A stretch of 64,000 nt of DNA from Deltaproteobacteria bacterium (GTDB lineage: Bacteria; Desulfobacterota; Desulfobaccia; Desulfobaccales; Desulfobaccaceae), in the NCBI GenBank assembly GCA_019309545.1, contig JAFDGA010000006.1, positions 1 through 64,000 on the forward strand, given 5' to 3'. This document shows, piece by piece, positions 2,948 through 30,227 of the stretch. Within the stretch, counting starts at the first letter, position 1. Each line of letters begins with the position of its first letter. Position numbers and translations under genes: made by a program. Under the pieces are notes generated by a model. The model was not told the origin of the DNA and searched no databases. It saw nothing but the letters and a program-made list of their open reading frames with translations.

Positions 2948-5287
2948 ATGCGGCGTTTTTCTTTTTTATTATCCCGCTATGTCATAATAGTTATCCTGGT
3001 CGGGATCTTGGTGCTGTTAGGCGTCAGCATTTATTTGGGACTTAAGTCCGCCGGACAGATGCGCCAGATCGTCAAAGAGGATTTCAATCAACAGCAACTG
3101 GTTCTGGCGCAGCATACTGCCAGTATTTTGGAGCAGGACCTTGAATTTCTGAAACGGGAGTTGCGGATTCTCAACCACTCTGCTTCAGTTCAATACTTAG
3201 AAGAACTCACCTGGGCCCATCGTATGCGAGTCACCCTCTCCAGTGTGCGGGAAGAGGGCGTGGTGGAAATTCGCCGGATAAATCGGGAAGGCAATAAAGC
3301 CTATCTGGTAGATGAACGTAGCCTGGAGCACATCATCACCGGTTCCTATAAAAAAACACCTTATTTTGAATGGGCCCGGCAGCCGGAAAACAAGGGGCGG
3401 GTCTATGTTAGCCGGGTAATTACTCAGTTGCCCAATTATTTCGGCCGGCTGATCATGATCATCGCTACACCGACCTATGACGAGTCGGTAGATGAAAGTC
3501 ATCCCCACCCCTCCGGGCAGTGGTCCGGGGTGCTGGCTTTTTATATTGATGTTCACTATCTGGCGCATAAATTTACCTCTGAGATCAGAAGCGGCAAGAC
3601 GGGCTACGCCTGGATCATGGACAACCAGGGTACCTTTTTATATCACCCGGAGGAGGATTTTATCGGTAAAAATGCCTTTACGGTGCGCAAGGCCCGGATG
3701 CCGGCCATCTCCTTTGACGCCATTAACGAAATCCAGCGGGAAAAGATGCTCACCGGCCAGGAAGGCTGGGGCACTTACATCTCCGGCTGGCATCGGGGTG
3801 AGGCGGGGGTAATCCAAAAACTGATCGCCTATGCCCCCGTGAAATTAACCGGCTCCAGTCTGGCGGAGACCGCGGGCCCGGCAAGCTCTTGGTCGGTGGC
3901 GGTAGTGGCTCCGGTTAGCGAAGTGGAAGGCGTCATCCACACCATCTATCAGCGGCAATTTCTGATCCAGGTGATCATCGGCGTCTTCGTGCTGCTGAGC
4001 AGCGTGGTTTTGTTGAATTATCGTTATGAGCGGGAATTTACTGCGACCCTGGAGGAAGAGGTCAACCGCAAAACCGAGGAGTTACACCGGTCGGAAGCCC
4101 GTTATCAGGCTTTGGTGGAGAATGCCGCGGATCTGATTTATTCAGTGGACACTGAGGGTCGCATTCAATCTATTAACCGCTGTGCCGCCTGCCTGTTCTC
4201 TCTGGCCCGTTCGATGCGGAGTAAGGCCGAGGCTTCCGAAGCCCAGGTCGAGGTCAGACCGGAAGATTTCATCGGCCGGACTTTTTATGACATATTTGAC
4301 AAAAAGTCGGCCGATTTCCATCTGGAATGGTTGCAGGAAATCAAAGGTACCGGTCTGATCCGAAGCAAACGCCATCCGGTGACCGTGAAGGGGAAGGAGT
4401 TTTGGTTTTCCACCAGTATAGTTGGACTGAGAGACGAGCAGGGGCAGATTTATGCCTATGAAATCATCTCCCGGGATGTCACCGGGCGCAAAGCCATGGA
4501 AGACCGCCTGATCAATATGGAGAAGCTGGCCTCCCTGGGAACTATGGCCGCCGGGGTGGCCCATGAAATCAACAACCCGGTAGCGGTGATCCTGGGATTT
4601 ACGGAACACTTATTAGAAAAAACCGCCGACTTGCCTGACATCCATGAAACTCTGCAGGTAGTTGAGGAAGAGGGATTGAAATGTAAAAAGATCGTAGAAA
4701 ATTTGCTCACCTTTGCCCGCACCCCGGAACGCGCCGAGATCAGTGCCAATATTAATGAAATTTTGGAAAAGACCCTGGCAGTGATGAAAAACAATCTGAT
4801 GACCAAAAAGATTCAACAAGAATGCAGTCTTACCCCTGATTTGCCCCGGGTTAAAGGAGACCCCCAAGAATTGCAGCAGGTCTTTATCAACCTGATCAAC
4901 AACGCCATCGACGCTATGAAGGGTGGCGGTATACTGAGGATAAAGACCTGGCTAACTGCCAAAAATCAGGTAGCTATCGAATTCGGCGATACCGGCGTGG
5001 GTATCCCCAAAGAGTTGCAAGCCAAGATCTTTGATCCATTTTTTACCACCAAGAAAACCGGGGAAGGGACCGGTTTGGGTCTGTCCATGAGTTATGGCAT
5101 TATTACCAAATTTGGGGGTAAAATCATCTGTAAAAGTTACCCGGAAAAGGAATATCCCGATAAACATGGCACTACTTTTATTGTCTATCTGCCCGTATTT
5201 ACCGAGGCTGAGTCTGAGGCGCCCCCTTTGGCCACAGAAGCGGAGGTTCTGGAAGACCAGCCCCCCCGTATTGGAACATTCCTGTAG
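2948..5287 (+). CDS. Membrane sensor histidine kinase with extracytoplasmic Cache and PAS domains
   Basis: Domain order: transmembrane helix (about 10-32), long extracytoplasmic double-Cache-like region (35-330), second transmembrane helix (about 338-358), coiled segment, PAS domain (about 385-515), HisKA with phospho-acceptor H539 in VAHEINNP, and HATPase_c with N-box [10 protein letters not shown] and glycine boxes DTGVGIP and GTGLGLS. It would sense a small extracytoplasmic ligand and autophosphorylate. It starts one base after the upstream PEP-synthase-like stop codon and is followed by a response regulator 24 bases on, so the cassette is probably co-transcribed. A C-terminal tail of about 25 residues after the ATPase domain has no recognisable motif. 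Confidence 0.9.
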
Positions 5288-5311: not shown

Positions 5312-5722
5312 ATGTCAGAACGGATACTAGTTGTCGATGATGAACCCAATATGCTGAGATTACTGAAAACCGTGATCACCGACAAGACCGACTACGAAGT
5401 CGTCACCACCAATAACTCCTTGGAAGTGCCTAAACTGCTCCAGGACGAACATTTCGATCTGGTGATCACTGATCTCAAAATGCCCCTGGTAGATGGTATG
5501 GATGTCATCGAAATAACCAAGAAAAACGATCCTAATATCCCGATTATCATCATTACCGCTTATGGTACCATCGAGACCGCCGAAGAGGCGGTTCAAAAAG
5601 GGGCCTATGATTTTATCACCAAACCCTTCCGCCGGGAGACTATCTTGATCACTATAAAACGGGCCTTGGAGTGGAAAAAGATGCAAGGAGAACTCGCGGC
5701 ACTGAAAACCCCTGCGGTCTGA
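5312..5722 (+). CDS. Single-domain response regulator (receiver only)
   Basis: A 136-residue protein consisting of one receiver domain and a short tail, with no DNA-binding output. Acid pair D9/D10, phospho-acceptor D54 in VITDLKMP, switch T82 and K104 in TKPF are all present. A strong AGGAGG lies at 5301-5306, six bases before the ATG. It is the likely partner of the kinase just upstream. With no output domain it must act by protein contact, possibly on the PEP-synthase-like proteins encoded on either side; that target is inference. Confidence 0.88.
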   Translation: MSERILVVDDEPNMLRLLKTVITDKTDYEVVTTNNSLEVPKLLQDEHFDLVITDLKMPLVDGMDVIEITKKNDPNIPIIIITAYGTIETAEEAVQKGAYDFITKPFRRETILITIKRALEWKKMQGELAALKTPAV

Positions 5723-5770
5723 ATACTTCACCGGTGCATCTGTCTTGGCTGTGCCCAAGTTGAGGAATTA

Positions 5771-8329
5771 ATGTTTAAATTCCTGCGGCGCTTCCTTAAA
5801 TCCGAGGAGGACCAGCAGCTCCGCCTGAAGGAGAAATTTTCTCACTTCCGCCGCCTCCTAGAAGGCAATAATCAGGCTCTGGAGATCATGGCGGATATGG
5901 AGGAAAAGCTCGCCGAGGAATACCTTTTTGATACCGGGTACATACGTAGCCAGGTGGATCGGCTAGCCCACCAGGTAACCCAGATAATCACTGAACTTAA
6001 TAAGCTCACCCAGGATCGCTATCCCGAACTAGTAGTAGTTCACCGTCAACTCCAGGAAGCCATCCAACAGGAATTGACTTCGACGCCGGAAGTCCCTAAA
6101 ACCCCTTACATTTTGCCCCTGACTGACCTTACCCGAGAAATGGCGGCCAGCGTGGGCAGCAAGATGGCCAACCTGGGCGAGATCCGCAGCAGGCTGGAGA
6201 TGCGGGTGCCCGATGGGTTTGCTATCTCTGCCTGGGCCTACAAACGATTTCTGGAGACCTCCGGACTGGCAGAAGAGTTAAAGCAATATCTGACTCAGTC
6301 CAGCCTGGATGATCTAGAGAGCCTCGAGGCCGTCAGCGAACAGATGCAGACTCGGGTGCGCCAGGCCCAACTTCCCCCGGATCTGGCCGAAGCCCTGATC
6401 CAAGCCGGTCAATCTCTGGCAGGCCGAGGCGTGGCAGTACGCTCCAGCGCCGTCGGGGAAGATACCCATTATTCTTTTGCTGGCCAATTCCGAACCTTGC
6501 TCAACGTCCCTCCGGAACAACTGGTGGAGCATTACAAGGAAATCGTGGCCAGTAAATTTACTTCCCGGGCAATTTTCTATTGGAAATACCAACAATTTTC
6601 TGTAAATGAGCTACCCATGGCTGTAGGTTGTCTGGCCATGGTGCCTGCCAAGACCAGTGGGGTGATGTTTTCGGTGGACCCACATGCTCCGGATAGCAAT
6701 ACCCTAGTGATCACCGCAGTCTGGGGCCTAGGGAAATATGCCGTAGATGGCCGCATCTCGCCGGACATTTACCGGGTCAGCCGAACCGGCGACCACCAGG
6801 TGCAGGAACAGCGTCTAGCTCAGAAGCCGGTGGCGCTAACCTGCGCCCCGGAAGGGGAGACCAAGGAAATTTCATTGCCCCCGGAGCAGGGTCAATCACC
6901 CTGTCTGACCCCGGAACAGATCAAAAGTCTGGCAGAGATTGCCTTAAAGCTGGAAAAACACTTCGGCGGTCCGCAGGATATTGAGTGGGCTATTGATGAA
7001 CGTGATGAAATCTTCGTGCTGCAAACACGACCGCTCCGCATTAGTGCTGCCGCCTTCGGGGCCGCTGCTACGCCTCCCCCGGAACCCACCGCACCGCCAT
7101 TGTTAAAACACGGTATTCGAGCGGTCGGCGGGGCCGCAGCCGGGCCGGTCTATCTGTTTCTGGATGAAAAAGACACCGCCAACATCCCCCCCGGCTCCGT
7201 AGTTGTGGCCCGACAGCCTTCGGCCCGTCTGGTATTGGTCATGGATCGCATTGCCGCCATCATTACCGAGGTGGGCAGTCCTACGGGTCACATGTCGATC
7301 CTGGCCCGGGAATTCCGGATTCCCACCCTGGTTGAGGTCGGCGGGGCCACCCGGATATTGCGCACCGGTCAGATGGTGACCGTGGATGCAGACACAGCTC
7401 GCATCTATCAGGGAATCATCCCTGAACTGCTGGTCTCTCCACCTGCAGCCGAAGAAGCCTGGCGACAGAATCCAGTCTTTGAGAAGCTAAGGTGGATTTT
7501 AAAAAAAATCACCCCGCTATTTCTGCTCGACCCGGATAGCCCCGACTTCCAACCAGGCAATTGCCGGACCTGGCACGATATCACCCGCTTTTGCCATGAA
7601 AAGGCCATGGATGCCATGTTTGATCAGGATGTGGAGGAATCTTTACGGGCCAGTGGCGTGATGCGACTGAAGAGCGAAATACCGCTTAACCTCTTTATCT
7701 TAGATCTGGGCGGCGGCCTGAGGACAGCCGGCCTGGAAACGGTAGAAGAGCAGGATATCGCCTGCCGTCCTTTCCAGGCCCTGCTCCGAGGCTTTCATCA
7801 TCCCCGGGTCAGTTGGGCCGGACAGGTGGTGGTGGACTTCAAAGGTTTTATGTCCGTCTTTGCTAACACCCTCTATGATATGGCAAAATCGGAACGCGGT
7901 CTGGGGGGCAAGAGCTTTGCCATCATTACCGAAAATTACCTCAATTTTAATTCCCGGCTGGGCTATCATTTCTCCATCGTCGACGCCTATCTGTCCGAAG
8001 AACAGAATGACAACTATATCAGTTTCCAATTCAAAGGCGGGGCCGCCGAACCGGAACGCCGGGAACGCCGCGCCCGGTTACTGGGCAAGATCCTGCAAGA
8101 ACTAGGTTATAAAGTTCAGGTCAAAGGAGATCTGGTGCAGGGACGGCTGGTCAAATATTCTCTTTTAGAAACCGAGCAAACGCTGGAATTGACCGGTCTG
8201 TTAATGGCCTTTGCGCGGCAGTTAGACCTGGCCCTGGCTTCCGACGCGGTCATGAATCGCTTTCTGACGGCTTTCCGGGAAGGCGACTACAGCCTGAGAT
8301 TCCTACGCCCCGAGCAAGCCCCATCCTAA
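5771..8329 (+). CDS. PEP-synthase-like phosphotransferase with non-standard C-terminal domain (paralogue 2)
   Basis: Full-length paralogue of the protein ending at 2946, with the same order: helical N-terminus (1-100), PPDK_N ATP-grasp domain (about 105-430; VRSSAVGED, PQDIEWAID..LQTRP), phospho-histidine swivel domain with H507 in SPTGHM, then the same unassigned domain (about 575-840; CRTWHDI, DLGGGL, NYLNFNSRLGYH, RRERRARL). The PEP/pyruvate barrel is missing here too. The ATG at 5771 has AGGAA upstream and begins a basic amphipathic segment. The architecture is reminiscent of rifampin phosphotransferase, which also pairs an ATP-binding and a swivel His domain with a different substrate domain, but the C-terminal region here is not its rifampin-binding domain by eye. 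Role unknown; probably phosphotransfer linked to the two-component pair between the paralogues. Confidence 0.8.
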   Translation: MFKFLRRFLKSEEDQQLRLKEKFSHFRRLLEGNNQALEIMADMEEKLAEEYLFDTGYIRSQVDRLAHQVTQIITELNKLTQDRYPELVVVHRQLQEAIQQELTSTPEVPKTPYILPLTDLTREMAASVGSKMANLGEIRSRLEMRVPDGFAISAWAYKRFLETSGLAEELKQYLTQSSLDDLESLEAVSEQMQTRVRQAQLPPDLAEALIQAGQSLAGRGVAVRSSAVGEDTHYSFAGQFRTLLNVPPEQLVEHYKEIVASKFTSRAIFYWKYQQFSVNELPMAVGCLAMVPAKTSGVMFSVDPHAPDSNTLVITAVWGLGKYAVDGRISPDIYRVSRTGDHQVQEQRLAQKPVALTCAPEGETKEISLPPEQGQSPCLTPEQIKSLAEIALKLEKHFGGPQDIEWAIDERDEIFVLQTRPLRISAAAFGAAATPPPEPTAPPLLKHGIRAVGGAAAGPVYLFLDEKDTANIPPGSVVVARQPSARLVLVMDRIAAIITEVGSPTGHMSILAREFRIPTLVEVGGATRILRTGQMVTVDADTARIYQGIIPELLVSPPAAEEAWRQNPVFEKLRWILKKITPLFLLDPDSPDFQPGNCRTWHDITRFCHEKAMDAMFDQDVEESLRASGVMRLKSEIPLNLFILDLGGGLRTAGLETVEEQDIACRPFQALLRGFHHPRVSWAGQVVVDFKGFMSVFANTLYDMAKSERGLGGKSFAIITENYLNFNSRLGYHFSIVDAYLSEEQNDNYISFQFKGGAAEPERRERRARLLGKILQELGYKVQVKGDLVQGRLVKYSLLETEQTLELTGLLMAFARQLDLALASDAVMNRFLTAFREGDYSLRFLRPEQAPS

Positions 8330-8455: not shown

Positions 8456-9298
8456 TTATTTGACTACCAGGACCGGACAGGTTGAATTTCCGATAATTCT
8501 TTCGGTGACACTCCCCATTAATAGCCGATCCAGACCGGTCCGGCCGTGGGATCCCATGATAACCAGGTCAATCTTTTGTTCAGTGACCAGATCAAGGATG
8601 ATTTGCTCGGCCCGGCCTTGCCGCACCAGACCTTCAGTCTTAATACCCTCAGCTTCGGCCAGAGATTTGACCTCATCGACATATCCTTGAATAGGACTTA
8701 GCATATCCTGGTCAACCGCTGGTAAGGGTCCGGAAACCTTGCAGCACAAGTCAAAGACGGAGACCACCGTCAGCTCTCCCCCGTATGATTTGGCAAAATC
8801 TACTGCCCGTTCGGCGGCCTTCTGACTGTACTTGGACCCATCCGTGGGCAACAAGATCTTCTGCCAGTTGAGGGTGGCTTGGGGCGGCACCACAAGAACA
8901 TGCACCGGGCTGTAGCCGATGACCCGACGGGTATTACTGCCGATCAGGGTCCGGGCTAAGAAGCTGTGCCCACTGCGACCCATGACGATGAGATCAACTT
9001 TTTCCCTCTCGGCTAAGTCCACGATCTCTTCATAGGGTTCGCCCACCATACATGCGGTGCTGATCTGGGCCCCTTCGGTCTCGGCCAGTTTCTGGGCTTG
9101 GCCCAGGGCCCGTTCACAGGGTTCGGCCAGCAGGGCGCTAAGACTCTGGCCACCGGTGATTCTTAAATCCCCCTCGTAACGAGGGGCCACCGATACGGCG
9201 ATGAGGCCATCTTTGGACAGCCGGAGGGATTCTTTTAAGGCGTGTAAACTGGGCTCCGAGCCATCCACCGCTACCAGGATCTTGCTATACCTGGCCAT
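8456..9298 (-). CDS. Tandem universal stress protein (UspA family)
   Basis: Two Usp domains in one chain (about residues 1-145 and 148-280). Each ends in an ATP-binding signature of the G-x2-G-x9-GS type: MGRSG..IGSNTRR in the first and MGSHG..MGSVTER in the second, so both halves are likely nucleotide-binding. The family supports survival under stress in the cytoplasm. I prefer the ATG at 9298 over a TTG seven codons upstream because an AAAGG Shine-Dalgarno sits 7-8 bases before it. The start lies inside the end of the TauE/SafE gene (overlap of 14 bases), suggesting translational coupling with that transporter. Confidence 0.88.
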   Translation of the reverse strand: MARYSKILVAVDGSEPSLHALKESLRLSKDGLIAVSVAPRYEGDLRITGGQSLSALLAEPCERALGQAQKLAETEGAQISTACMVGEPYEEIVDLAEREKVDLIVMGRSGHSFLARTLIGSNTRRVIGYSPVHVLVVPPQATLNWQKILLPTDGSKYSQKAAERAVDFAKSYGGELTVVSVFDLCCKVSGPLPAVDQDMLSPIQGYVDEVKSLAEAEGIKTEGLVRQGRAEQIILDLVTEQKIDLVIMGSHGRTGLDRLLMGSVTERIIGNSTCPVLVVK

Positions 9299-10361
9299 AA
9301 CGCGTACCTTTACTTTCAATTGCCAGTGCCGCCTTTTCGGCCCGGATACCCTTCCACATGGCTCCCAAGATAATTACCGCCCCCAAGGTCAAAGCAAAAC
9401 ACATGGACAGGTAGCTAACTTTATTGAGCAAGGATATGGTTCCCTCATTCATGCTGATAACCTGAAGTTGTTTGAGATATTGAGGGATTGCCAAACCCCG
9501 GCTCACGGCAACGATCAGCATGATAGTCCCCATGACATATTTAATCATGTAGTCCTTCACATAGGTAGTGCCGATGGCACCCAACTGCACCCCCAACAGG
9601 GATCCGGCCAGGATCAGCAAGGTCATGCGGATATCAATCAGCCCGAGAATGCCCCATTTGATCGAGCCGGTCAAACCCATGATAAAGGCTACCACCAGCT
9701 CGGTAGCCGAGGCGACCAGACCGGTAGCCCCCACCACATACATCATGCCAGGCACACCGATAAAACCGCCGACCGCGATGGTAGCCGCCAGCATGCCGGT
9801 AAAAAAGCCCACCGGTATGGTGAACCACAAGGATATGGTTAAGTTGGCGGACTTAAAAGTGATCATCGGGGGCAGATTTATACTCTGCAGTTTCTGGGCC
9901 AGCTTGGTGACCTTGCTCTCGGCCCCAGACTTTTTCAATTTTACGGCGTCCCGGAAAACATAACCTCCGACGACCACCAGTACCACCACAAAGGCTAAAC
10001 TGATATAAAGATTAGAGCCTGCTTGCCCCCAGCGGGCCAGGATCAGCTCCTGGATCTTGATTCCCACCAGCACCCCGCCGATGGCCGAAAGGGCCACGAT
10101 CAAACCGAGCTTGATGTCGGCCTGACCGTATTTCCACCTTTTATAAGCTCCGACCATGGCCTTGGGAAATTTATGGCACATGTTGCTGGCCACCGCTACG
10201 GCCCCCGGCGCCCCCAGGCTCATCATCCCTGGGGTCAGCACGAACGCCCCTCCCGAGCCGATAAAGCCGCTAACCAGTCCGCCGATAAAACCCAATACAA
10301 ATAAGAATATTACCGAGTATAAATTTAAATCAATGAACATTAAATTTTCTGTTCCGGGCAT
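9285..10361 (-). CDS. TauE/SafE-family anion exporter
   Basis: A polytopic inner-membrane protein of 358 residues with about eight hydrophobic segments and the glycine-rich family repeat near the N-terminus (GLVSGFIGSGGAFVLTP) and again in the middle (AATIAVGGFIGVPGM). The family exports sulfite, sulfoacetate or related organosulfur anions. A hydrophilic cytoplasmic stretch (about 160-180) splits the halves. It overlaps the universal stress gene downstream and follows a 12-bp perfect inverted repeat in the upstream spacer. Substrate not deducible; sulfite is an inference from the family. Confidence 0.85.
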   Translation of the reverse strand: MPGTENLMFIDLNLYSVIFLFVLGFIGGLVSGFIGSGGAFVLTPGMMSLGAPGAVAVASNMCHKFPKAMVGAYKRWKYGQADIKLGLIVALSAIGGVLVGIKIQELILARWGQAGSNLYISLAFVVVLVVVGGYVFRDAVKLKKSGAESKVTKLAQKLQSINLPPMITFKSANLTISLWFTIPVGFFTGMLAATIAVGGFIGVPGMMYVVGATGLVASATELVVAFIMGLTGSIKWGILGLIDIRMTLLILAGSLLGVQLGAIGTTYVKDYMIKYVMGTIMLIVAVSRGLAIPQYLKQLQVISMNEGTISLLNKVSYLSMCFALTLGAVIILGAMWKGIRAEKAALAIESKGTRYGQV

Positions 10362-10488: not shown

Positions 10489-10800
10489 CTAGGCATTGAG
10501 GCGTAAACGGGGACGCTCTCTCCGAACCGGTCGTCTGGCCGCCGGGCGTGGCTGGACCGACTTGGCAGAAGGTTCAATACCCAATGCTGACAGGAAATTG
10601 CTGGTAAAAGACCCATGCACAAACGAGAAGATTAATGCTGTGGCTACTGGCAAGCCGGCATACAACCCTCCCATGGTAAAGTAAGTCGTCACTGTACCCT
10701 CATTCAGAAATACCGCGGCATAAAGAGCGACACTGGCCGCGCCGAGCACGATGGTATTCCGAAGATAGTACCTTCTTTTCTTCCTAAGATCCTTAGCCAT
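10489..10800 (-). CDS. Small two-helix membrane protein from internal start
   Basis: Translation from the internal ATG at 10800 gives 103 residues: basic head (MAKDLRKKRRYYLRN), two hydrophobic segments (about 15-31 and 40-60), then a Pro/Arg-rich tail. AAGGAGG at 10808-10814 sits seven bases before this ATG, an ideal ribosome binding site that would be pointless inside a single gene. It is in the same frame as the upstream Usp-like domain, with no stop between. Function unknown; its position before a TauE/SafE exporter suggests a membrane accessory role. Confidence 0.6.
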   Translation of the reverse strand: MAKDLRKKRRYYLRNTIVLGAASVALYAAVFLNEGTVTTYFTMGGLYAGLPVATALIFSFVHGSFTSNFLSALGIEPSAKSVQPRPAARRPVRRERPRLRLNA

Positions 10801-11397
10801 AATCCTTCCTCCTTGATATCCTTGGTATCTTCTCAGGCTGAAAACCGGCAAGGTTACTTGCGCAGTTACTTCCTGTTTGGTAATTTTGGGTTCGGTAATG
10901 ACAAATTCGATACGCTTCACCTCATGATTAACCTCCTCCACGGCCTGATTGAGGTCACCGAATTTCACCATCTGACGGCACTGCACCCCTTGCTCCGCGG
11001 CTTTGGCCTGGAGGCGGGCCGCGGCGGCGGTGGCCCGTTTCTTAAAGGAATCCTGCCAGGATTTGCCTAAAGCAGGGTAGAACCTGGCTGACCGCCGGGG
11101 CGGCGTCCCCACATTAAGAGCCACAAGGTTGCAGCCCAGCCGGGCTGCCAGACTAACCGTGTAATCGATTTCTTCCGGGTCAAAGGTTTCACCATGAGCC
11201 ACTAACAAAATTTTGCGCGGCTCCCCCGGAATTAGGGGTTTCTCCTCAGCGGCCAGATCGTATAGTTCGGGCCCGCCTCCCAGGGGCACGACCTCCATCG
11301 CCGACCCAAAAGCTTGGGGCAGGCTGTGGTTGTTCCTATCCTCCGGGCCAGGAGTAGGGCTTTTCCCTGCCTTCCACTTTCTCAGTCGCCACAACAT
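10489..11397 (-). CDS. Usp-like cytoplasmic protein running in frame into a two-helix membrane protein
   Basis: The frame encodes a basic, low-complexity N-terminus, a Usp-like Rossmann domain (about residues 60-190, starting KILLVAHGET; the C-terminal glycine nucleotide loop is not apparent), then, without any stop codon, a small membrane protein with two hydrophobic helices and a very basic tail (RPAARRPVRRERPRLRL). The start shown is an ATG at 11397 with AAGGAAAGGA upstream; a TTG 17 codons earlier is weaker. The junction contains a perfect ribosome binding site, so the second part is probably also made alone. Either two genes fused by loss of a stop or one bifunctional product. First gene of the set leading to tauE-like and uspA-like genes. 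Confidence 0.6.
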   Translation of the reverse strand: MLWRLRKWKAGKSPTPGPEDRNNHSLPQAFGSAMEVVPLGGGPELYDLAAEEKPLIPGEPRKILLVAHGETFDPEEIDYTVSLAARLGCNLVALNVGTPPRRSARFYPALGKSWQDSFKKRATAAAARLQAKAAEQGVQCRQMVKFGDLNQAVEEVNHEVKRIEFVITEPKITKQEVTAQVTLPVFSLRRYQGYQGGRIMAKDLRKKRRYYLRNTIVLGAASVALYAAVFLNEGTVTTYFTMGGLYAGLPVATALIFSFVHGSFTSNFLSALGIEPSAKSVQPRPAARRPVRRERPRLRLNA

Positions 11398-11448
11398 GGT
11401 CTTAATTCCTTTCCTTGACTTCTTCGGGGCCAGATTTTGGCTCCGCAA

Positions 11449-11771
11449 TCATGGCCTAACCACTAACTCTAACCGCTTTTGACTCTATTAGTTTCCAAGA
11501 ACCATGCCAAAAATCCGGTTATTGTTTAAGTTAATGATTTAATTAACTTTATTATTTTTTCAAGGACAAACTGAAAGCCACAACACTGTTGCACTTTGTA
11601 ACGGCAATATCTTTTGGCCTAAATTAAATAATTAAAATAATAACTTGAAAATTGTTACACCATCACTGCTTAACCATTGAAAAATGCAACATAATCACAG
11701 AGAAAACATCGCTTATCAAGGTTATCTTGCTCTTGTTCAGGTTTTCATTTATAATTTAATTAGGATAACGA
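11449..11771. other. AT-rich divergent intergenic region
   Basis: About 320 bases without a gene, between a minus-strand Usp-like gene and the plus-strand Lon-receiver gene. It is strongly AT-rich compared with the flanks and presumably holds promoters in both directions. The best candidate on the plus strand is listed separately at 11727-11755. I found no sigma54 or classical heat-shock promoter here. Confidence 0.6.
11727..11755 (+). promoter_or_regulatory. Candidate promoter for the Lon-receiver gene
   Basis: A perfect TATAAT (11750-11755) with TTGCTC 17 bases upstream (11727-11732). Transcription would start near 11762, only ten bases before the first ATG (11772) but about 30 bases before the second (11793), which has its own AAAGG eight bases upstream. 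This favours the second ATG. Confidence 0.55.
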
Positions 11772-13802
11772 ATGCTTAGAAAGGTTGCGGCAATGATCTT
11801 TTTTCGGAAACCCGAGGATGAACGAGCCCCTACTGGCAAGGAGTTAGCTGACCTGCGAGTTGCTATTCAGAAGGCCCAACTGCCCGATTATGTGGCTAGC
11901 GCGGCCAGAAAAGAATTGGAACGGCTGGAAAAAACTGATCCCGCGGTAGCCGAATACTCGATTGGCCTCAATTACCTGGATTATCTAATCTCCCTGCCTT
12001 GGAACCAATTTACTGAAGACAACTTGGATCTGAAGCGGGCCGAGCGCATTCTGGAGTCCAAACATTATGGTCTCCAGCACGTCAAGGAAAGGGTGTTGGA
12101 ATATTTAGCGGTCCGCACTCTGTGCAGCATCCAAACTTCTCGGGTACTGGTGGTGGATGACGAAGAGATCGCCCGCCACAACCTGGAATATATTTTGCGA
12201 AAAGAGGGCCATCAGGTGGCCACCGCCGCCAACGGCGTGGAGGCCCTGGATCAGGTCAAATCCCATGATTTTGATCTGGTCCTCACCGACTTGAAGATGG
12301 ACCGGATGGATGGCCTGCAGTTGCTGGAATCGGTGAAACGACTCTCCCCTCATACCGAAATCATCATGGTTACCGGTTATGCTACGGTCACCACCGCGGT
12401 GGACGCCCTGCGCAAAGGCGCGGCGCATTATCTGTCCAAACCGATCAAACTGGATGAGTTGCGGGAGACGGTCCGGGAAATCATCGATCGCAAACGGCAT
12501 ATGCAGATGGCCCGGGGGCCGATTCTGTGTTTCGCCGGCCCCCCCGGCACTGGCAAAACCTCGATGGGACAGGCCATCGCCGAAGCCCTGGAACGCAAGT
12601 TCGTACGCATGTCCCTGGCCGGGTTGCGTGACGAGGCCGAACTTCGAGGCCACCGCCGCACCTACGTTGGGGCCATGCCAGGCAGGATTATTAATGAAAT
12701 AAAGCGCTTGGAGGTAAAAAATCCGGTCTTTATGTTGGATGAAATCGATAAGATCGGGCAGGACTTCCGGGGGGATCCTGCTTCCATTTTGCTAGAAATT
12801 CTGGACCCGGAACAGAACCATCATTTTATTGACCATTATGTGGATCTGCCCTTTGATCTGTCCGGGGTGATGTTTATCACTACCGCCAATGTTGTGGGAA
12901 ATCTGCCCTTACCGCTCCTGGATCGGTTAGAAGTCATTAATTTCCCTGGTTATACCGAGGGTGAGAAGAAAAAGATCGCCAAGAATTATCTGATTCCCCG
13001 CCAGCTCAGAGACTCCGGTCTGACCCAGTTAAGCCTGGAGTTTACCGATGAGGCTATTATCAAGATCATCCGGGACTATACCCGGGAGGCTGGTCTGAGA
13101 AATTTAGAGCGGGAGATTGCCATGATCTGCCGCAAATTGGCCCGGATCTGTTTGCGTGACAAGGCGGTATCCTGTCCTACTATGGTAGATGAGGTTCTGG
13201 TTGAACGGTTTTTGGGGCCGAGAAAGTTCAGTTACGGGGTGGCAGAAAGCGAAAGACGACTGGGAGTGACCACCGGCCTGGTCTGGACCGAGCTCGGCGG
13301 GGAAATCATCTCGGTGGAAGCGACCCGGATGCGAGGCAATAAGCAACTTATTCTGACCGGTTCCCTAGGAAGTGTACTCCAGGAATCGGCGCAAACCGCC
13401 ATGAGTTATATCCGAAGCCATGCGGAGCAATTTCAGATCCCCCCTGATTTTTTTACCACCAGTGATATCCATATTCATATCCCTTCCGGAGCCATACCCA
13501 AAGAAGGCCCGTCCTCGGGGATTACCATTGCTCTGGCCCTGCTTTCACTGTTGACCGGGCGGCCGGCCCGGCAGGATGTGGCCCTCTCTGGGGAGCTGAC
13601 CTTGAATGGCCGCCTGTTGCCGGTCAGCGGCATTCGCGAAAAGATTATGGCCGCTCAGCGGGCTGGAATCAAAACGGTGATATTTCCTAAGCAGAATGAG
13701 GTAGATATTAATAATCTGGAGGAGGAAGTCAAAAAAGGGCTGGAAATTGTGTTGGCGGAAGAAATACCGCCAATCATTGATCTGGTGCTGCTACCCGCAT
13801 GA
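11772..13802 (+). CDS. Lon-type ATP-dependent protease with inserted response-regulator receiver domain
   Basis: Residues 20-118 match the helical region before the Lon ATPase (LISLPW, HYGL..VKERVLEYLAV). At the point where ordinary Lon continues into its Walker A strand, a complete receiver domain is inserted (about 123-240; acid pair D129/D130, phospho-acceptor D173, T201, K223). Lon then resumes: Walker A GPPGTGKTS (256-264), Walker B LDEID (322-326), sensor-2 region TREAGLRNLERE, and a full S16 protease domain with catalytic S581 (GPSSG) and K624 (REK), 43 residues apart as in E. coli Lon. The Lon N-terminal substrate-binding domain, about 240 residues, is missing. All catalytic residues are kept, so an active peptidase gated by phosphorylation is plausible. 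The true start may be the ATG at 11793. Ends 9 bases from the convergent NtrC-type gene. Confidence 0.88.
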   Translation: MLRKVAAMIFFRKPEDERAPTGKELADLRVAIQKAQLPDYVASAARKELERLEKTDPAVAEYSIGLNYLDYLISLPWNQFTEDNLDLKRAERILESKHYGLQHVKERVLEYLAVRTLCSIQTSRVLVVDDEEIARHNLEYILRKEGHQVATAANGVEALDQVKSHDFDLVLTDLKMDRMDGLQLLESVKRLSPHTEIIMVTGYATVTTAVDALRKGAAHYLSKPIKLDELRETVREIIDRKRHMQMARGPILCFAGPPGTGKTSMGQAIAEALERKFVRMSLAGLRDEAELRGHRRTYVGAMPGRIINEIKRLEVKNPVFMLDEIDKIGQDFRGDPASILLEILDPEQNHHFIDHYVDLPFDLSGVMFITTANVVGNLPLPLLDRLEVINFPGYTEGEKKKIAKNYLIPRQLRDSGLTQLSLEFTDEAIIKIIRDYTREAGLRNLEREIAMICRKLARICLRDKAVSCPTMVDEVLVERFLGPRKFSYGVAESERRLGVTTGLVWTELGGEIISVEATRMRGNKQLILTGSLGSVLQESAQTAMSYIRSHAEQFQIPPDFFTTSDIHIHIPSGAIPKEGPSSGITIALALLSLLTGRPARQDVALSGELTLNGRLLPVSGIREKIMAAQRAGIKTVIFPKQNEVDINNLEEEVKKGLEIVLAEEIPPIIDLVLLPA

Positions 13803-13811
13803 ATAAGGTCC

Positions 13812-15167
13812 TCAAGCCTCTATGCCGTACCGCTTCAGTTTCCGCCACAGGGAGACCCGATCAATCCCTAAGACCTCTGAGGTCCGGGTTTTATTGCCGT
13901 CCATCTGATTCAAGACCCAAAGAATATAATCTTTCTCATTTTCTTCCAGGGTCTGAAATTCCCGCTTCTGGCGACGCTGCAGTTGAAAGCCCTGTTGCTG
14001 CAAGTCGGCCGAGAGATGCTGCACTTCAATAGTCGAGCCATTGCAAAGGGTCACCGCTCGTTCGATGATATTCTCCAGTTCCCGGATGTTGCCGGGGAAT
14101 TCATAGTTCATCAGAATATCCATTACTTCGTCAGAAATTCCTCTAATATCTTTGCCTTGGGTCTGAGAAAACTTTTTTAAAAAATTATAGCTCAACAGCG
14201 GGATGTCATCTTTCCGGGCCCCCAGAGGCGGTAGTTCTAAGGTAATAACATTAAGTCGGTAATAAAGGTCCTGCCGGAAGCGGTTGTGTTCCACCTCTCG
14301 TTTCAAGTCTTTATTGGTAGCGGCCAGGATGCGGATATCCACTGGAATCTCAGCAGTCCCCCCGACCCGCATCAGGTTCTTTTCCTGGAGGACGCGGAGC
14401 AGCTTAACCTGCATGGCCAGAGGCATATCACCGATCTCATCCAGGAGCACCGTGCCTCCCGAGGCTACTTCCAATAAGCCTCTTTTAATTCCCCGGGCCC
14501 CGGTGAAGGCTTCCTTCTCATGGCCAAAGAGTTCATTGGCCAGTAGTTCTTCACTAAACGAACCGCAGTTCAAGGCCAGGAAGCGTTTTTCGGCCCTGGG
14601 ACTCAACTGATGAATGGCTTTGGCCACCAGCTCTTTGCCAGTGCCGGTTTCTCCCAGAATGAGCACGGTGCAATCGGTCGGGGCAATCTGTTCGATGGTC
14701 TTGCGTAACTCTTCGATTTTGGGGGTTTTGCCAATCAACTGCGGCAGCCCTTCCTGAGTTTTTACCTGCCGCCGTAATTCGCTGACTTCCTGCCGGAGCC
14801 ATCTTTTTTCCAGGGCCTTGCGTACCAGGATGCGCAGTTCATCAATCTTATGAGGTTTGGGGAGATAGTGATAAGCTCCTTTCTGCATGGCTTCCACCGC
14901 AGTGCCAACCGTGGCATAGCCGGTAATCATCACCACTTCGGTATCCGGATAGAGTTCTTTGGTACGCTCCAAAACCTCCATGCCGTCCACTTGCTGCATA
15001 CGCAGATCAGTCAGGACCAGGTCAAACTCGGATTTTTCCAGTTCCTGGAGAGCCCGAACGCCGCTTTCTACCGCGACAGTGTCATACCCTTCCTTACTCA
15101 GAACATAATCCAGATTTTCTCTGGCGATTTTTTCATCATCAACGATCATAATTCGCGCTGGCCGCAT
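13812..15167 (-). CDS. NtrC-family sigma54-dependent response regulator
   Basis: Receiver domain (1-120; D10/D11, phospho-acceptor D54), AAA+ central domain (about 140-370) with Walker A GETGTGKE and Walker B LLDEIG, and a Fis-type helix-turn-helix at the C-terminus (TSEVLGIDRVSLWRKLKRYG). It would activate sigma54 promoters when phosphorylated. The sigma54-contact loop reads EAFTGA rather than GAFTGA. Its receiver is about half identical by eye to the receiver inside the neighbouring Lon protease. The start overlaps the end of the kinase gene by 29 bases, so kinase and regulator form one operon, convergent with the Lon-receiver gene. A sigma54 promoter lies at 17623-17640. Confidence 0.92.
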   Translation of the reverse strand: MRPARIMIVDDEKIARENLDYVLSKEGYDTVAVESGVRALQELEKSEFDLVLTDLRMQQVDGMEVLERTKELYPDTEVVMITGYATVGTAVEAMQKGAYHYLPKPHKIDELRILVRKALEKRWLRQEVSELRRQVKTQEGLPQLIGKTPKIEELRKTIEQIAPTDCTVLILGETGTGKELVAKAIHQLSPRAEKRFLALNCGSFSEELLANELFGHEKEAFTGARGIKRGLLEVASGGTVLLDEIGDMPLAMQVKLLRVLQEKNLMRVGGTAEIPVDIRILAATNKDLKREVEHNRFRQDLYYRLNVITLELPPLGARKDDIPLLSYNFLKKFSQTQGKDIRGISDEVMDILMNYEFPGNIRELENIIERAVTLCNGSTIEVQHLSADLQQQGFQLQRRQKREFQTLEENEKDYILWVLNQMDGNKTRTSEVLGIDRVSLWRKLKRYGIEA

Positions 15168-16629
15168 CGCTGGATTCTCTCCCTTCCGCTATCTCCGTAA
15201 AACAGGGTACCCGAATAATAAATCGGGTGCCCTCCCCCACTTTGCTTTCCACGGCGACGGTGCCGTGGTGTTTTTCGATGATGCCGTAAACAATAGACAG
15301 CCCCAAACCAGTCCCCGAACCAACCTCTTTAGTGGTAAAAAACGGATCAAATATCCGTTCCCTGGTCTCCTTGGGAATACCTTTCCCCGTGTCCTCCACG
15401 GTGATCACGCCCTCTTGGGTGGCTGGATCGAGCTGAGCCGCTATCTTGATTTCCCCGGGCAGTTGGTCGATGGCCTGGATGGCGTTCATAATTAAATTGA
15501 GAAAAACCTCCTGCATCTGTTGGGCATCTAAAATAAGGATCAGATCCGGAGGAACCTCATCCACAATCTCAATCCCGGTCGGCACCTGACTGGAAACCAG
15601 TCTGATGGAACGCTCTACTACTTCATGGAGTGGCGTAGGTTTGAGGGCAAATTCCCGGACCCGGGAGAAATCCAGTAGTCCTCTGACTATATCCCGGGCC
15701 CGATTGACTTCTTGTTCAACATTGGTCAGCATTTTTCTAAAGAATTCAATATTACCCTGGTTTAATTCCTCTAAGAGTATCTGGCAGGAGGTAGAAATAT
15801 TATTCAAAGGGTTGTTTAGCTGATGAGCCACCCCAGAGGTCAACACGCCCAGAGAAGACATTTTTTTGGACTGCACCAACTGATCCTGCCGCTTTTCCAG
15901 TTCTTGCACCATGCGGTTGAAGGCCTCTACGACCCGCTGGGTCTCATCCCGCGTATTTAACACCGGCAGTGGCTTATAATTTCCCTGGGCGATGCGCTCG
16001 GTCGTTTTTTCAATGGTGGCCAGCGGGCGGATGATCTTGCGGCTGACCACAATCACTAAAAACACCCCCAAGCCGAGGAATACCCCGATGGAGACCAAGA
16101 GCTGACCTTTTAATTGCCTAATGATCTCCAGAATCTTTTGGCGTTCGAAGGTGACCAACTGTTTAGAAATGTTTACGAGTTCCTTGCCTTTTTCCCGTAA
16201 TTTTTCTTCTAATAGCTCATAGCTTGGATTGCCCCTGGCTATTTCGTTGTTAGAAATCTGATCCATTAGTTGTTTATAATCCAGGAGTCCTTGCTGAATT
16301 ATATGAAGCCGAGGCGCGCCTGACAAACCACGTAACTCTGGTCCGATTTTATCAAGAATTTCTAAACCTAATTGGATATAGCGTTGATTTTCCTTCAGAT
16401 CATCCGGCGAACCATACAGGAGATAATTTTTTTCATACCTGCGGATTTCCAGAGCAATATTACTGAAGTCGTCTGCCTTTTCCACAAAATGCTGTTTTAA
16501 TTCAATTACTTGTAAATAATGATAGGAGATCAGGGCGATGAAGCCGATGGCTAACATGCCGGTCGTCAGGCCAACAATCACCTTCTGCCGAATATTTAAA
16601 TATAAGCGAAACTTAGACCCAGCCATCAA
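15139..16629 (-). CDS. Membrane sensor histidine kinase, partner of the NtrC-type regulator
   Basis: Transmembrane helix (about 13-33), an extracytoplasmic all-helical sensor of about 140 residues (35-175, resembling CHASE3-type four-helix bundles), second transmembrane helix (about 178-197), HAMP, HisKA and HATPase_c with DTGKGIP and [11 protein letters not shown]. The phospho-acceptor is H269, but the next residue is Gln (AHQLNNP) where most kinases of this group have Glu, a position that influences phosphatase or kinase activity. Ends within the regulator gene (29-base overlap). No small-molecule pocket is evident, so the stimulus is unknown. By receiver similarity it may also phosphorylate the Lon-receiver protein. 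Confidence 0.9.
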
Positions 16630-26483: not shown

Positions 26484-28946
26484 TCAATGGGCCCGAATCT
26501 CATGATCAGCCGGAACCTCGCCAACCGGCAAGAAGACCGGCTTATCGGACAGGGCTGAAGGTTGAGCGCGAAATAGACTATCGGGATCCTCGAGCGCCAG
26601 AGCCTGTCTCAGCACCTCATCCATATGTTCGACGGTAACCAGTTCCACTGCTTTCAAAATTCGGGCCGGGATCTCTTTAATGTCCTTCTCGTTATCCTTG
26701 GAGATCAGTACGGTTTTGATCTGGCCCCGGTGCGCGGCAATGATCTTTTCTTTCAAACCGCCTATGGGCAGCACCCGTCCTCTGAGGGTGATCTCTCCGG
26801 TCATGGCCACATCCCGCCGCACCGGAACCTTGAGCAGGGCCGAGACGATGCTGGTGGCAATGGTAATCCCGGCTGACGGCCCATCTTTAGGGATGGCCCC
26901 TTCTGGAACGTGCACATGGATGTCGATTTTGCGGTAAAAATCGCGACCCAGGCCCAGTTGTTCCGACCGGGAGCGGACATAACTCAGGGCGGCCTGGGCC
27001 GATTCCTGCATCACTTCCCCCAGCTTGCCGGTGATGATTAGTTTGCCCCGCCCGGGAAGAATCACTGCCTCGGTCTGGAGCAGTTCGCCTCCGAATTCAG
27101 TCCAGGCCAGTCCGGTGGTAAGGCCGACTTCATCGTGTTCCTCAGTGCGACCAAAGCGGAACTTGGGCACCCCCAGATACTTGGGGATGTTCTGGCTGGA
27201 AACCTTGACTTTATGTTCTCTGCCTTCCTTGGCCACTTCCCGGGCCACTTTTCGGCAGATGGAGGCGATCTCCCGTTCCAGATTCCGGACCCCGGCTTCA
27301 CGAGTATAATGGCGAATAATGGTTAAGATGGCATTTTCCGAAAATTCAATATTATCTGCTTCCAAGCCATTGGCCTGCCGCTGTTTGGGAACCAGAAACT
27401 GCTGCGCTATATGGAGCTTCTCAACCTCTGTATAGCCCGGCAGGCGGATAATTTCCATCCGGTCCTGCAGCGGCAGCGGGATGGAATACAGATTGTTGGC
27501 GGTAGTGATAAACATCACTTCGGAAAGATCGTAATCAACATCCAGATAGTGGTCATTAAAGGCGAAATTCTGCTCTGGATCCAGCACTTCCAACAGGGCT
27601 GCCGAAGGATCGCCGCGAAAATCAGTGCTCATCTTATCCACTTCGTCCAGACAAAAGACCGGGTTGTTGGTCTTGGCTTTGCGGAGCGATTGGATAATCT
27701 TACCCGGCAAAGCACCGATATAAGTACGGCGGTGTCCCCGGATTTCTGCCTCATCCCGAACGCCTCCCAGGGACAGACGGACGAAATTGCGGCCTAGGGC
27801 CCGAGCCACTGACTTGGCCAGGGAGGTTTTCCCCACGCCGGGAGGCCCTACCAGGCAAAGGATCGGTCCTTTCATTTTTTTGACCAGACTCTGGACCGCC
27901 AGGTGTTCCAGGATGCGCTCTTTGGGTTTTTCCAGGCCGTAATGGTCTTCATCGAGGATTTGCTCGGCGTTGACAATGTCAAGCTTATCCTTGGTGCGTT
28001 CGTGCCAGGGCAATGAAATCAGCCAGTCAATGTAATTGCGCACTACGGTCGCCTCGGCCGACATGGGACTCATGAGCTTGAGTTTCTTCAACTCCTGGCG
28101 AACCTTGGTCATGGCCTCGGCGCTCATGCGTTTCTTCTTGATCTTTTTTTCGAGAGCCTGGATTTCACTACGGAAATCGTCTTTTTCGCCCATTTCCTTC
28201 TGAATGGCGCGCATTTGCTCATTCAGATAGTATTCCTTCTGGGTCTTCTCCATCTGTTTTTTAACCCGGTTCTTGATCCGACCTTCGATCTGTAAGACCT
28301 TGATTTCCCGTTGCATCAAGTTCAGGACCTTATCCAGCCGTTTAACCGGGTTGATGATTTCCAACAGTTGCTGTTTTTCATCAATTTTTATGGTCAGATG
28401 GGCCGCCAGATTATCGGCCAGTCGGCCGGGCTCTTCAACCGAGCTGACTGCCTGCAGGACCTCCTGAGGAATCTTCTTATTTAACTTGGCATACTTCTCA
28501 AAGGCATCGATTGAAGTCCGGACCAGCGCCTCGGCTTCCACCGAATATTCGTAGGGCTCGATAATTTCTTCGATTTCTACCAAGAAGAAGTTGGGATTGG
28601 CCAGATATTGCCGGATAATAGCCCGCCCTTTGCCCTCGATCAGGGCCTTGACGGTCCCATCCGGCAGGCGTAGAAGCTGTAATACCTGCCCCACCGCGCC
28701 GAAGCGATAGATATCGGATTCGCCAGGATCATCCTTGCTGGCGTCTTTTTGGGTAACCAAAAGAACTGGACTATCCTGGCTCATAGCATTCTCTAGAGCC
28801 TGGATGGAACGTTCCCGACCAATAAACAGTGGTACCACCATATAGGGAAAAACCACGATATCCCGTAAAGGTAGCAAGGGGACGGTATTGTAGAGCCTGC
28901 CTTTACCATCGGATGTTAGTTTCGGTCGGTTTAGTTTAAATATCAT
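26484..28946 (-). CDS. lon: ATP-dependent Lon protease (endopeptidase La)
   Basis: 820 residues with the full Lon plan: N-terminal substrate domain (1-210), helical region with [13 protein letters not shown]+ module with Walker [10 protein letters not shown], and S16 protease domain with catalytic S691 (GPSAG) and K734 (KEK). It degrades damaged and regulatory proteins in the cytoplasm. It is the last protein gene of the tig-clpP-clpX-lon group, 24 bases after clpX. This is the housekeeping Lon; the protease at 11772 is a second, divergent family member that lacks the N-terminal domain and carries a receiver. The C-terminal tail of about 40 residues is not conserved. Confidence 0.96.
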
Positions 28947-28970: not shown

Positions 28971-30227
28971 TTAAGCAATCTCGGCCTGAGGTTCAAAGAT
29001 TAGGATCGGCGATTCGTGTTTTAAGATAACGTCTTCGTTGATCAGACACTCCCGCACATTCTTGAGCGAGGGGATTTCGTACATCACATCCAGCATGGCC
29101 TGTTCCAGGATGGCCCGTAGTCCCCGGGCTCCGGATTTACGCTTCAGGGCCTCGCGCGCCACTGCCGCCAAGGCACCATCGGTAAACCGCACCGTCACAT
29201 GCTCCATCTCCAGGAGTTTCTGGTACTGTTTGACCAGGGCATTGCGAGGTTCCTTGAGGATGCGCATTAAGGCCTCTTCATCCAGTTCTTCCAGGCTGGC
29301 AATCACTGGTAAGCGGCCAACAAATTCCGGAATCAGACCAAACTTCAACAGATCGTAAGGCTGCACCTGAGCCAGGGTCTGACCCAGTTTGCGATTGATC
29401 TGACTCTCCACCGGGGCCACAAAACCCATGGTCTTGCGACCGATCCGGGCGTTGATAATATCTTCCAGGCCGTTAAACGCCCCGCCACAGATGAAGAGAA
29501 TATTGGTGGTATCGATTTTGACGAATTCCTGCTGGGGATGTTTCCGACCACCTTTGGGCGGCACCGAGGCCATGGTCCCTTCGATGATCTTGAGCAGGGC
29601 CTGTTGCACGCCTTCTCCGGAGACATCCCGGGTGATAGAGGGGCTGTCAGTTTTGCGGGCGATCTTGTCAATTTCATCGATATAGACGATGCCCCGACAG
29701 GCCTTTTCCACATCGTAATCAGCTCCCTGCAGGAGATTGAGGATAATGTTTTCGACATCCTCCCCCACATAGCCTGCTTCGGTTAAGGTAGTGGCGTCAG
29801 CAATGGTAAACGGCACATTGAGAATCTTGGCCAGGGTTTGGGCTAACAGAGTCTTTCCCGAACCGGTGGGGCCAATCAACAGGATATTGCTCTTCTGCAG
29901 TTCCACGCCGTCCATGTCGACCCGAGAGTTGATCCGTTTGTAATGGTTATAAACCGCTACTGACAGAATCTTTTTGGCCCGTTCCTGACCAATGACATAT
30001 TCGTCGATTTCTTTCTTTATATCCGCTGGTTCCGGTATTGACAGCCGGGCGCCTTTAGCCTCTTCTTTTTCGTACTCCTCGGCAATGATGTCATTGCACA
30101 ATTCAATACATTCATCACAGATATAAACGCTGGGGCCGGCGATAAGCTTTTTCACCTCACTCTGACTTTTCCCACAGAAAGAACAGAAGAGATCGGAGGA
30201 TTTATCGTTGCCGCGTTTAGTCATCAC
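28971..30227 (-). CDS. clpX: ClpX ATPase subunit of ClpXP protease
   Basis: 418 residues. N-terminal zinc-binding domain with two CX2C pairs (CSFC ... CDEC), Walker A GPTGSGKT, Walker B YIDEIDKI, and the pore loop region near GYVGEDVE. It unfolds tagged proteins and feeds them to ClpP. The length and spacing fit the usual ClpX. Located between clpP (173 bases away) and lon, the standard order. Confidence 0.96.

Follow-up and report, generated by a model that had tools for sequence, protein, structure and literature searches.

A Lon protease with an inserted receiver domain, and its linkage to histidine kinase and NtrC-type regulator genes

The window, a 64,000-nucleotide stretch of DNA, carries on its plus strand an open reading frame (11772-13802, 676 codons plus stop) that encodes a three-helix part, an inserted receiver, an AAA+ ATPase, and an S16 protease, and whose product we call REC-Lon. 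The three-helix, pre-ATPase part of Lon spans residues 19-118 (11826-12125, +) and was matched by phmmer to residues 5-103 of 3m6a, the Lon of B. subtilis. The inserted receiver with its short linkers covers residues 119-247 (12126-12512, +), the phospho-acceptor D173 lying at 12288-12290, and residues 248-676 (12513-13802, +) form the AAA+ ATPase and the Ser/Lys protease, with Walker A at 256-263, the Walker B DE at 323-324, S581, and K624. Pfam placed Response_reg at 125-234 (1.1e-32), AAA at 252-390, Lon_lid at 414-464, and Lon_C at 472-673, and matched neither of two NtrC-family features, the Sigma54_activat AAA+ domain and the DNA-binding HTH, in REC-Lon. To judge by the sequence, the true start is probably M8, from the ATG at 11793; M8 is kept in at least 90% of the REC-Lon alignment, and by eye an AGAAAGG can be seen at 11778-11784, eight bases ahead of that ATG.

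Converging on REC-Lon is a gene for an NtrC-type response regulator (13812-15167, -; receiver, sigma-54 activator, and HTH_8 by Pfam), next to one for a histidine kinase (15139-16629, -; HAMP, HisKA, and HATPase_c by Pfam) that is the predicted phosphodonor of both receivers. A cluster of REC-Lon, histidine kinase, and NtrC-type sigma-54 regulator, of the type described around DVU3303 and discussed below, is present at 11772-16629; its kinase and NtrC-type regulator (13812-16629), absent from the preliminary description of this locus, are central to our interpretation. Divergent from REC-Lon is a 319-codon gene, here UspMem (10489-11448, -; no Pfam match at E 0.001), the first gene of a probable target operon that also holds a TauE/SafE-family transporter (9285-10361, -; Pfam) and a universal stress protein, Usp (8456-9319, -; Pfam). 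The translations used in the domain search of the genes at 8456, 9285, and 10489 were one codon short at the start.

Directed toward UspMem-TauE-Usp is a sigma-54-type -24/-12 element, TGGCATGGTTCTTGGA (11494-11509, -), which agrees with the consensus at 10 of 12 positions. Same-side elements agreeing at 10-11 of 12 positions were found in L007, L008, and L009, and the shuffled intergenic stretch held a mean of 0.14 sites at 9 or more of 12. At the level of sequence, the element at 11494-11509 suggests a parallel transcriptional arm over the divergent operon. A GTTGCA-N3-TGTAAC dyad at 11588-11602, noted by eye and with like stretches in L007 and L009, is a candidate site for the NtrC-type regulator. 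Also by eye, GTTGCA/TGTAAC-like half-sites occur between the divergent genes at 11653-11659 and 11685-11691, with similar ones in L007-L009, and may be further sites of this kind. Ahead of REC-Lon itself is a sigma-70 promoter-like TTGCTC-N17-TATAAT at 11727-11755 (by eye), where the divergent genes have instead the sigma-54-type element. Upstream in the window is a pair of mutually related PEP-synthase-like genes, at 505-2946 (+; by eye) and 5771-8329 (+; PPDK_N and PEP-utilizers domains), with a kinase-like protein (2948-5287, by eye) and a receiver match containing an internal stop (5315-5803) between them; relatives of the protein encoded at 5771-8329 adjoin Usp/TauE genes in several loci.

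REC-Lon scored 715.4 bits against the NCBIfam 'endopeptidase La' model TIGR00763, above the equivalog cut-off of 608.05, and 586.4 against the narrower NCBIfam Lon model NF008053, under the cut-off of 891. The Lon N-terminal domain PF02190 gave no Pfam match in the window REC-Lon and was matched in none of 60 aligned REC-Lons, some of which had lost up to 128 N-terminal residues to trimming, while it is present in the same genome's ordinary Lon (26484-28946, -). Because REC-Lon passes the TIGR00763 cut-off but is without PF02190, its domain matches mark it as a truncated LonA derivative and not a typical LonA. The ordinary Lon gene lies beside a ClpX-like gene (28971-30227, -; ClpX by eye), and the genome holds two more ordinary Lons (G000:C6 near 70.5 kb, and G000:C23 near 8 kb). 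Aligned with 3m6a, REC-Lon gave two pieces, residues 19-118 and 247-672, the first ending at 3m6a residue 103 and the second starting at 106; since the flanking pieces adjoin each other in 3m6a, the receiver appears as a clean insertion into Lon.

A missing N-terminal domain would suit an arrangement in which the receiver replaces it as a dock, recruiting for degradation other members of its pathway (its kinase or NtrC regulator, or proteins that bind by way of a receiver), with phosphorylation setting the partner. The adaptor receivers RssB and CpdR, acting for ClpXP, provide the model for such a dock. We think this unlikely, and the geometry of the insert bears on it directly. Every one of the 60 aligned REC-Lons has an insert of 129-130 residues, with a pre-linker of 5 and a post-linker of 13 residues, whereas the same place holds 3-5 residues in all 25 ordinary Lons (3 from the window's genome, L025, L026, and 20 fetched). 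In all but one of 63 REC-Lons, 31 residues separate the receiver KP from Walker A, the single exception having 8; in the linked NtrC regulators this spacing is likewise fairly constant, at 66 in 38 of 46 and 64-68 overall (46 of 49 being measurable). A receiver within the AAA+ core, beside strand 1 and on linkers of fixed length, is easier to reconcile with mechanical coupling than with a free dock.

Residues were counted in a set of 63 proteins, the window's included, in which the match begins by query residue 100 and ends at 650 or later, truncated or frameshifted loci being left out. The 60-row alignment additionally leaves out L007 (N-terminally short), L028, and L089 (whose match contains a stop). 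L071 duplicates L009 and was dropped, though it is still counted among the 63 for the KP-to-Walker A spacing. Within the receiver, D129 is found in 63 of 63 proteins, D130 in 61 (E in the other 2), D173 in 63, T201 in 61 (S in 2), and K223 in 63. The ATPase and protease residues are kept to the same degree: K262 in 63, S581 in 62 (the remaining one an unreadable X), and K624 in 63. Across the 60 aligned REC-Lons, every one of which has a PF00072 receiver match, D173, K223, the Walker residues (D323/E324 included), S581, and K624 are invariant. The structural claims of the preliminary description are borne out by these data: it had described a complete receiver (D129/D130, D173, T201, and K223), placed between the helical pre-ATPase part and Walker A, in a Lon that retains catalytic K262, S581, and K624 and has lost the N-terminal substrate domain.

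Identity to the window REC-Lon falls as low as 53% within its relatives, and D129, D173, and K223 are nevertheless present in every protein counted. This argues against a constitutive Lon in which a relic receiver merely stabilises the fold, as does the co-occurrence with the NtrC regulator reported below, and we find such a relic hardly credible. What speaks for the relic is a structure model in which the Lon fold surrounding the receiver stays intact. The AlphaFold2 model of the REC-Lon monomer, made with 60 sequences, had a pLDDT of 84.4 and a pTM of 0.77. Its Lon part matched 3m6a_A with an rmsd of 1.9 over 494 residues (Z 30.6) and 6v11_C with 1.8 over 494, and its receiver matched 3crn_A with 1.2 over 129. 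As both modelled parts match known structures, the insert need not, by this model, disturb the Lon fold. The helix at 102-120 runs into strand 1 of the receiver at 124, and at the receiver's other end helix 5 (227-247) almost directly joins AAA+ strand 1 (251-255). The model describes a monomer and does not address the ring.

The layout is not confined to the window. A scan of genome contigs gave 25 loci, of which 21 were REC-Lons, some truncated, from records named Desulfobacca, Desulfovibrio, Fundidesulfovibrio, Nitratidesulfovibrio, Desulfobulbaceae, and others; the remaining four, L025 and L026 (ordinary Lons) and L030 and L031 (without a Lon), were dropped. Within the window's phylum, 48 of 395 sampled genomes had a full-span REC-Lon (E <= 1e-165). 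The remaining 41 match rows in the phylum begin at residue 243-248 and are ordinary Lons plus that of G005, a genome with a split REC-Lon (L118) that is scored as lacking a full-span copy in the 395-genome counts yet is among the 47 loci of the neighbourhood count. A second phylum draw (197 genomes, 22 full-span rows) covered the same places as the first sample, seemingly the same phylum, and is not independent. The same insertion in 63 proteins from many genomes rules out an assembly artefact.

We also considered independent insertions, which were unsupported in the set examined: in a tree of the Lon parts (residues 24-118 plus 248-672), the 63 REC-Lons and 25 ordinary Lons split at a support of 0.999. 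An earlier Lon tree with just 5 ordinary Lons had 0.222 at the same node after re-rooting and was set aside. Rajeev et al. 2011 (PMC3333781) report presence in Thermodesulfovibrio, Thioalkalivibrio, and Dechloromonas as well.

We compared the neighbourhoods of 47 loci from the phylum. The regulator and the kinase were both on the fetched stretch at 35 of the 47, with TauE at 27 and a Usp-like gene at 29, in several gene orders; some of the stretches end at contig ends. Twelve loci did not show both. For nine of these, a whole-genome search recovered the regulator in 9 of 9, at 55-76% identity against at most 51% for the next best match, and in the other three (G278, G392, and G134) it was also present in the 395-genome search. 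Across that sample the NtrC regulator (E <= 1e-145) was found in 48 of 48 genomes with REC-Lon versus 30 of 347 without a full-span REC-Lon, a co-occurrence with a Fisher p of about 2e-41 when relatedness is ignored and lower-scoring regulator matches, which may be paralogs, are counted as they stand. That REC-Lon never occurs without the regulator in these 48 genomes would also be expected of a dock for proteins of its own pathway.

Fifteen of the 30 regulator-only genomes were fetched, and the kinase lay beside the regulator in all 15. No Lon was found on the stretch at any of these 15 loci, three of the stretches being just 3-4 kb. TauE and Usp were also present at five of them (L186, L187, L188, L191, and L192), and this arrangement without REC-Lon is probably ancestral for the cluster. 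An older core of kinase, NtrC regulator, and transporter and Usp genes, to which REC-Lon would have been added later, is what these loci suggest.

Among the receivers found in the genome, the one closest to that of REC-Lon belongs to the adjacent NtrC regulator (52% identity, 3e-39), the next being at 43% (2e-26). In a receiver tree the Lon receivers form one clade of 68 tips (support 0.893), which takes in five truncated or frameshifted REC-Lons (L013, L023, L024, L027, and L029) and joins, at 0.887, a 34-tip clade of 33 linked NtrC receivers and one other NtrC of L114, 'linked' meaning the best NtrC on the fetched stretch. The remaining 16 linked NtrC receivers fall outside, across nodes of 0.054 and 0.829; the deep nodes of this midpoint-rooted tree are weak, with 0.054 where 14 further linked NtrC receivers join. 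As part of our best explanation as a whole, we hold it fairly probable that the AAA+ module of REC-Lon captured a receiver of the kind borne by the neighbouring NtrC-type regulator.

When Lon receivers were paired with their linked NtrC receivers (46 pairs), identity was 59% in the kinase-facing helix 1 and 48% elsewhere; 13 unlinked receivers show the reverse, with 30% in helix 1 and 37% elsewhere. A dock for the kinase or the regulator would draw support from this pattern too. Seven kinase-specificity positions are taken from the Spo0F literature (PMC6136694). At these positions, the predicted specificity residues are EIANYIK in REC-Lon and EIANYVK in the linked NtrC regulator, 6 of 7 in common, and 28 other receivers found in the genome have at most 2 of 7 in common with REC-Lon. 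Because the specificity residues of the window pair are nearly the same, we predict that the linked kinase serves both receivers.

These shared residues partly reflect shared ancestry: same-locus pairs have a mean of 4.71 of 7 in common (range 2-7, 45 pairs) and different-locus pairs 4.50. Locus-by-locus co-evolution of the two receivers is weak, since 161 of 5000 permutations, in which relatedness is ignored, reached the observed 4.71, and we do not rely on it. In a comparison for a Lon-specific receiver surface, just K175, L184, and L230 were over threshold, too few for locating an interface.

Near-identical specificity would likewise be expected if the receiver tuned the linked NtrC regulator by competing with it or by acting as a phosphate sink, with the protease itself unregulated. 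Phosphate sinks exist in other two-component systems. A sink, however, needs neither insertion into the AAA+ core nor an insert held at 129-130 residues in 60 of 60 proteins, and it leaves the invariant protease residues unexplained; we regard it as distinctly improbable.

The reading that we favour, and consider rather probable, is that the kinase phosphorylates both receivers to drive a transcriptional and a proteolytic arm, with phosphorylated D173 gating assembly or ATPase activity of the Lon ring. The linked histidine kinase would phosphorylate D173 of REC-Lon and the receiver of the NtrC regulator. In the transcriptional arm, the regulator would bring about sigma-54 activation of the divergent Usp/TauE operon. 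In the proteolytic arm, the phosphorylated receiver would change shape and alter the packing at AAA+ strand 1, and through it ring assembly or ATPase coupling, in a mode akin to that of NtrC1-class receivers that would act on Lon's own assemble-to-activate step. Because helix 5 runs almost directly into AAA+ strand 1, ring assembly or the ATPase is what D173 phosphorylation would most likely alter; activation upon phosphorylation would be our guess at the direction. The analysis itself establishes the architecture, the residue conservation, the fixed insert length, the receiver grouping, and the co-occurrence; we infer phosphotransfer and gating, together with its direction and the substrates affected. 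It is, in our estimate, an even bet that the system is bifurcated, one kinase serving two receivers that share an origin, one carried by a sigma-54 activator and the other built into Lon, and that the captured receiver switches the Lon ring as NtrC-type AAA+ rings are switched. The preliminary description's idea of proteolysis as the output of a two-component system gains support from conservation, linkage, and receiver ancestry.

That description had also suggested that the layout was undescribed, which is wrong, as its counterpart DVU3303 was published in 2011. Rajeev et al. 2011 (PMC3333781) propose that DVU3303-DVU3304-DVU3305 of D. vulgaris Hildenborough may form a three-component system in which the response regulator contains a Lon protease, and suggest that phosphorylation may be needed for the protease activity of DVU3303; there, as here, phosphorylation is put forward as what may gate the protease. 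The targets mapped for DVU3305 comprise its own operon and DVU3302-3298, UspA-type domains being present in some (PMC3333781). According to a 2023 fitness study (PMC10102598), pairwise cofitness among DVU3303-3305 is above 0.9 throughout, and under chlorate the three genes prove detrimental, with the target DVU3299 being important for growth, a phenotype that does not fix the sign of control. The co-fitness could include polar effects, given that in L019 (Desulfovibrio sp. A2) lon comes ahead of the other two genes, all on one strand; the word 'polar' was not found in the text of that study. Literature searches aimed at receiver-bearing Lons, in a library that lacks most subscription journals and bioRxiv, gave three papers that name DVU3303 or DVU3305 and, among titles, abstracts, and passages, no biochemistry of such a protein (phosphorylation, ATPase, or proteolysis).

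Energy-dependent proteases are usually steered via adaptors and substrate tags. If our reading is true, REC-Lon is an ATP-dependent protease under direct two-component control, with the receiver built into the motor. The mechanism would be unusual and, like the layout, widespread, and it is not newly discovered, the layout and the phosphorylation hypothesis having been in print since 2011 (PMC3333781); what we add is the spread of the layout, the constraint upon it, a probable source for the receiver, and a prediction of the kinase that acts on it.

The window cluster and DVU3303-3305, as the latter is described, have in common a Lon-containing response regulator, a histidine kinase, and a sigma-54 NtrC-type regulator, and both have neighbouring Usp-type and transporter genes (in D. 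vulgaris a regulated operon, with UspA-type domains and a putative anion transporter). Gene order differs: in the window the regulator and kinase converge on lon, whereas in Desulfovibrio sp. A2 they come after lon on the same strand. Orthology to DVU3303 is judged from the genes described there and from the corresponding L019 cluster, and not from the DVU3303 sequence. With LonA proteins (TIGR00763, S16; e.g. 3m6a and 6u5z), REC-Lon shares the three-helix part, the AAA+ ATPase, the lid, and the Ser/Lys protease, but it is without the N-terminal substrate domain and has a 129-130-residue receiver where they have 3-5 residues.

Without phosphorylation NtrC1 is a dimer, its helix 5 and linker making up a single long helix; once phosphorylated, it can form active oligomers (PMC4878744). 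Activation of Lon may involve a pentamer gaining a sixth protomer (PMC10643698). The analogy with NtrC1 need not hold, because LuxO, a close NtrC relative, is regulated in another way (PMC4878744). REC-Lon shares with the NtrC1/LuxO class a receiver directly ahead of the AAA+ core, and its receiver groups with those of NtrC type; it differs in having a Lon protease as its output and an internal receiver in place of an N-terminal one, and no DNA-binding domain follows. Lon also degrades FixT, a receiver protein that is free and not fused to it (PMC7078487). RssB and CpdR are receiver adaptors of ClpXP through which a two-component signal controls proteolysis; their receiver is a separate protein, whereas that of REC-Lon is part of the protease chain.
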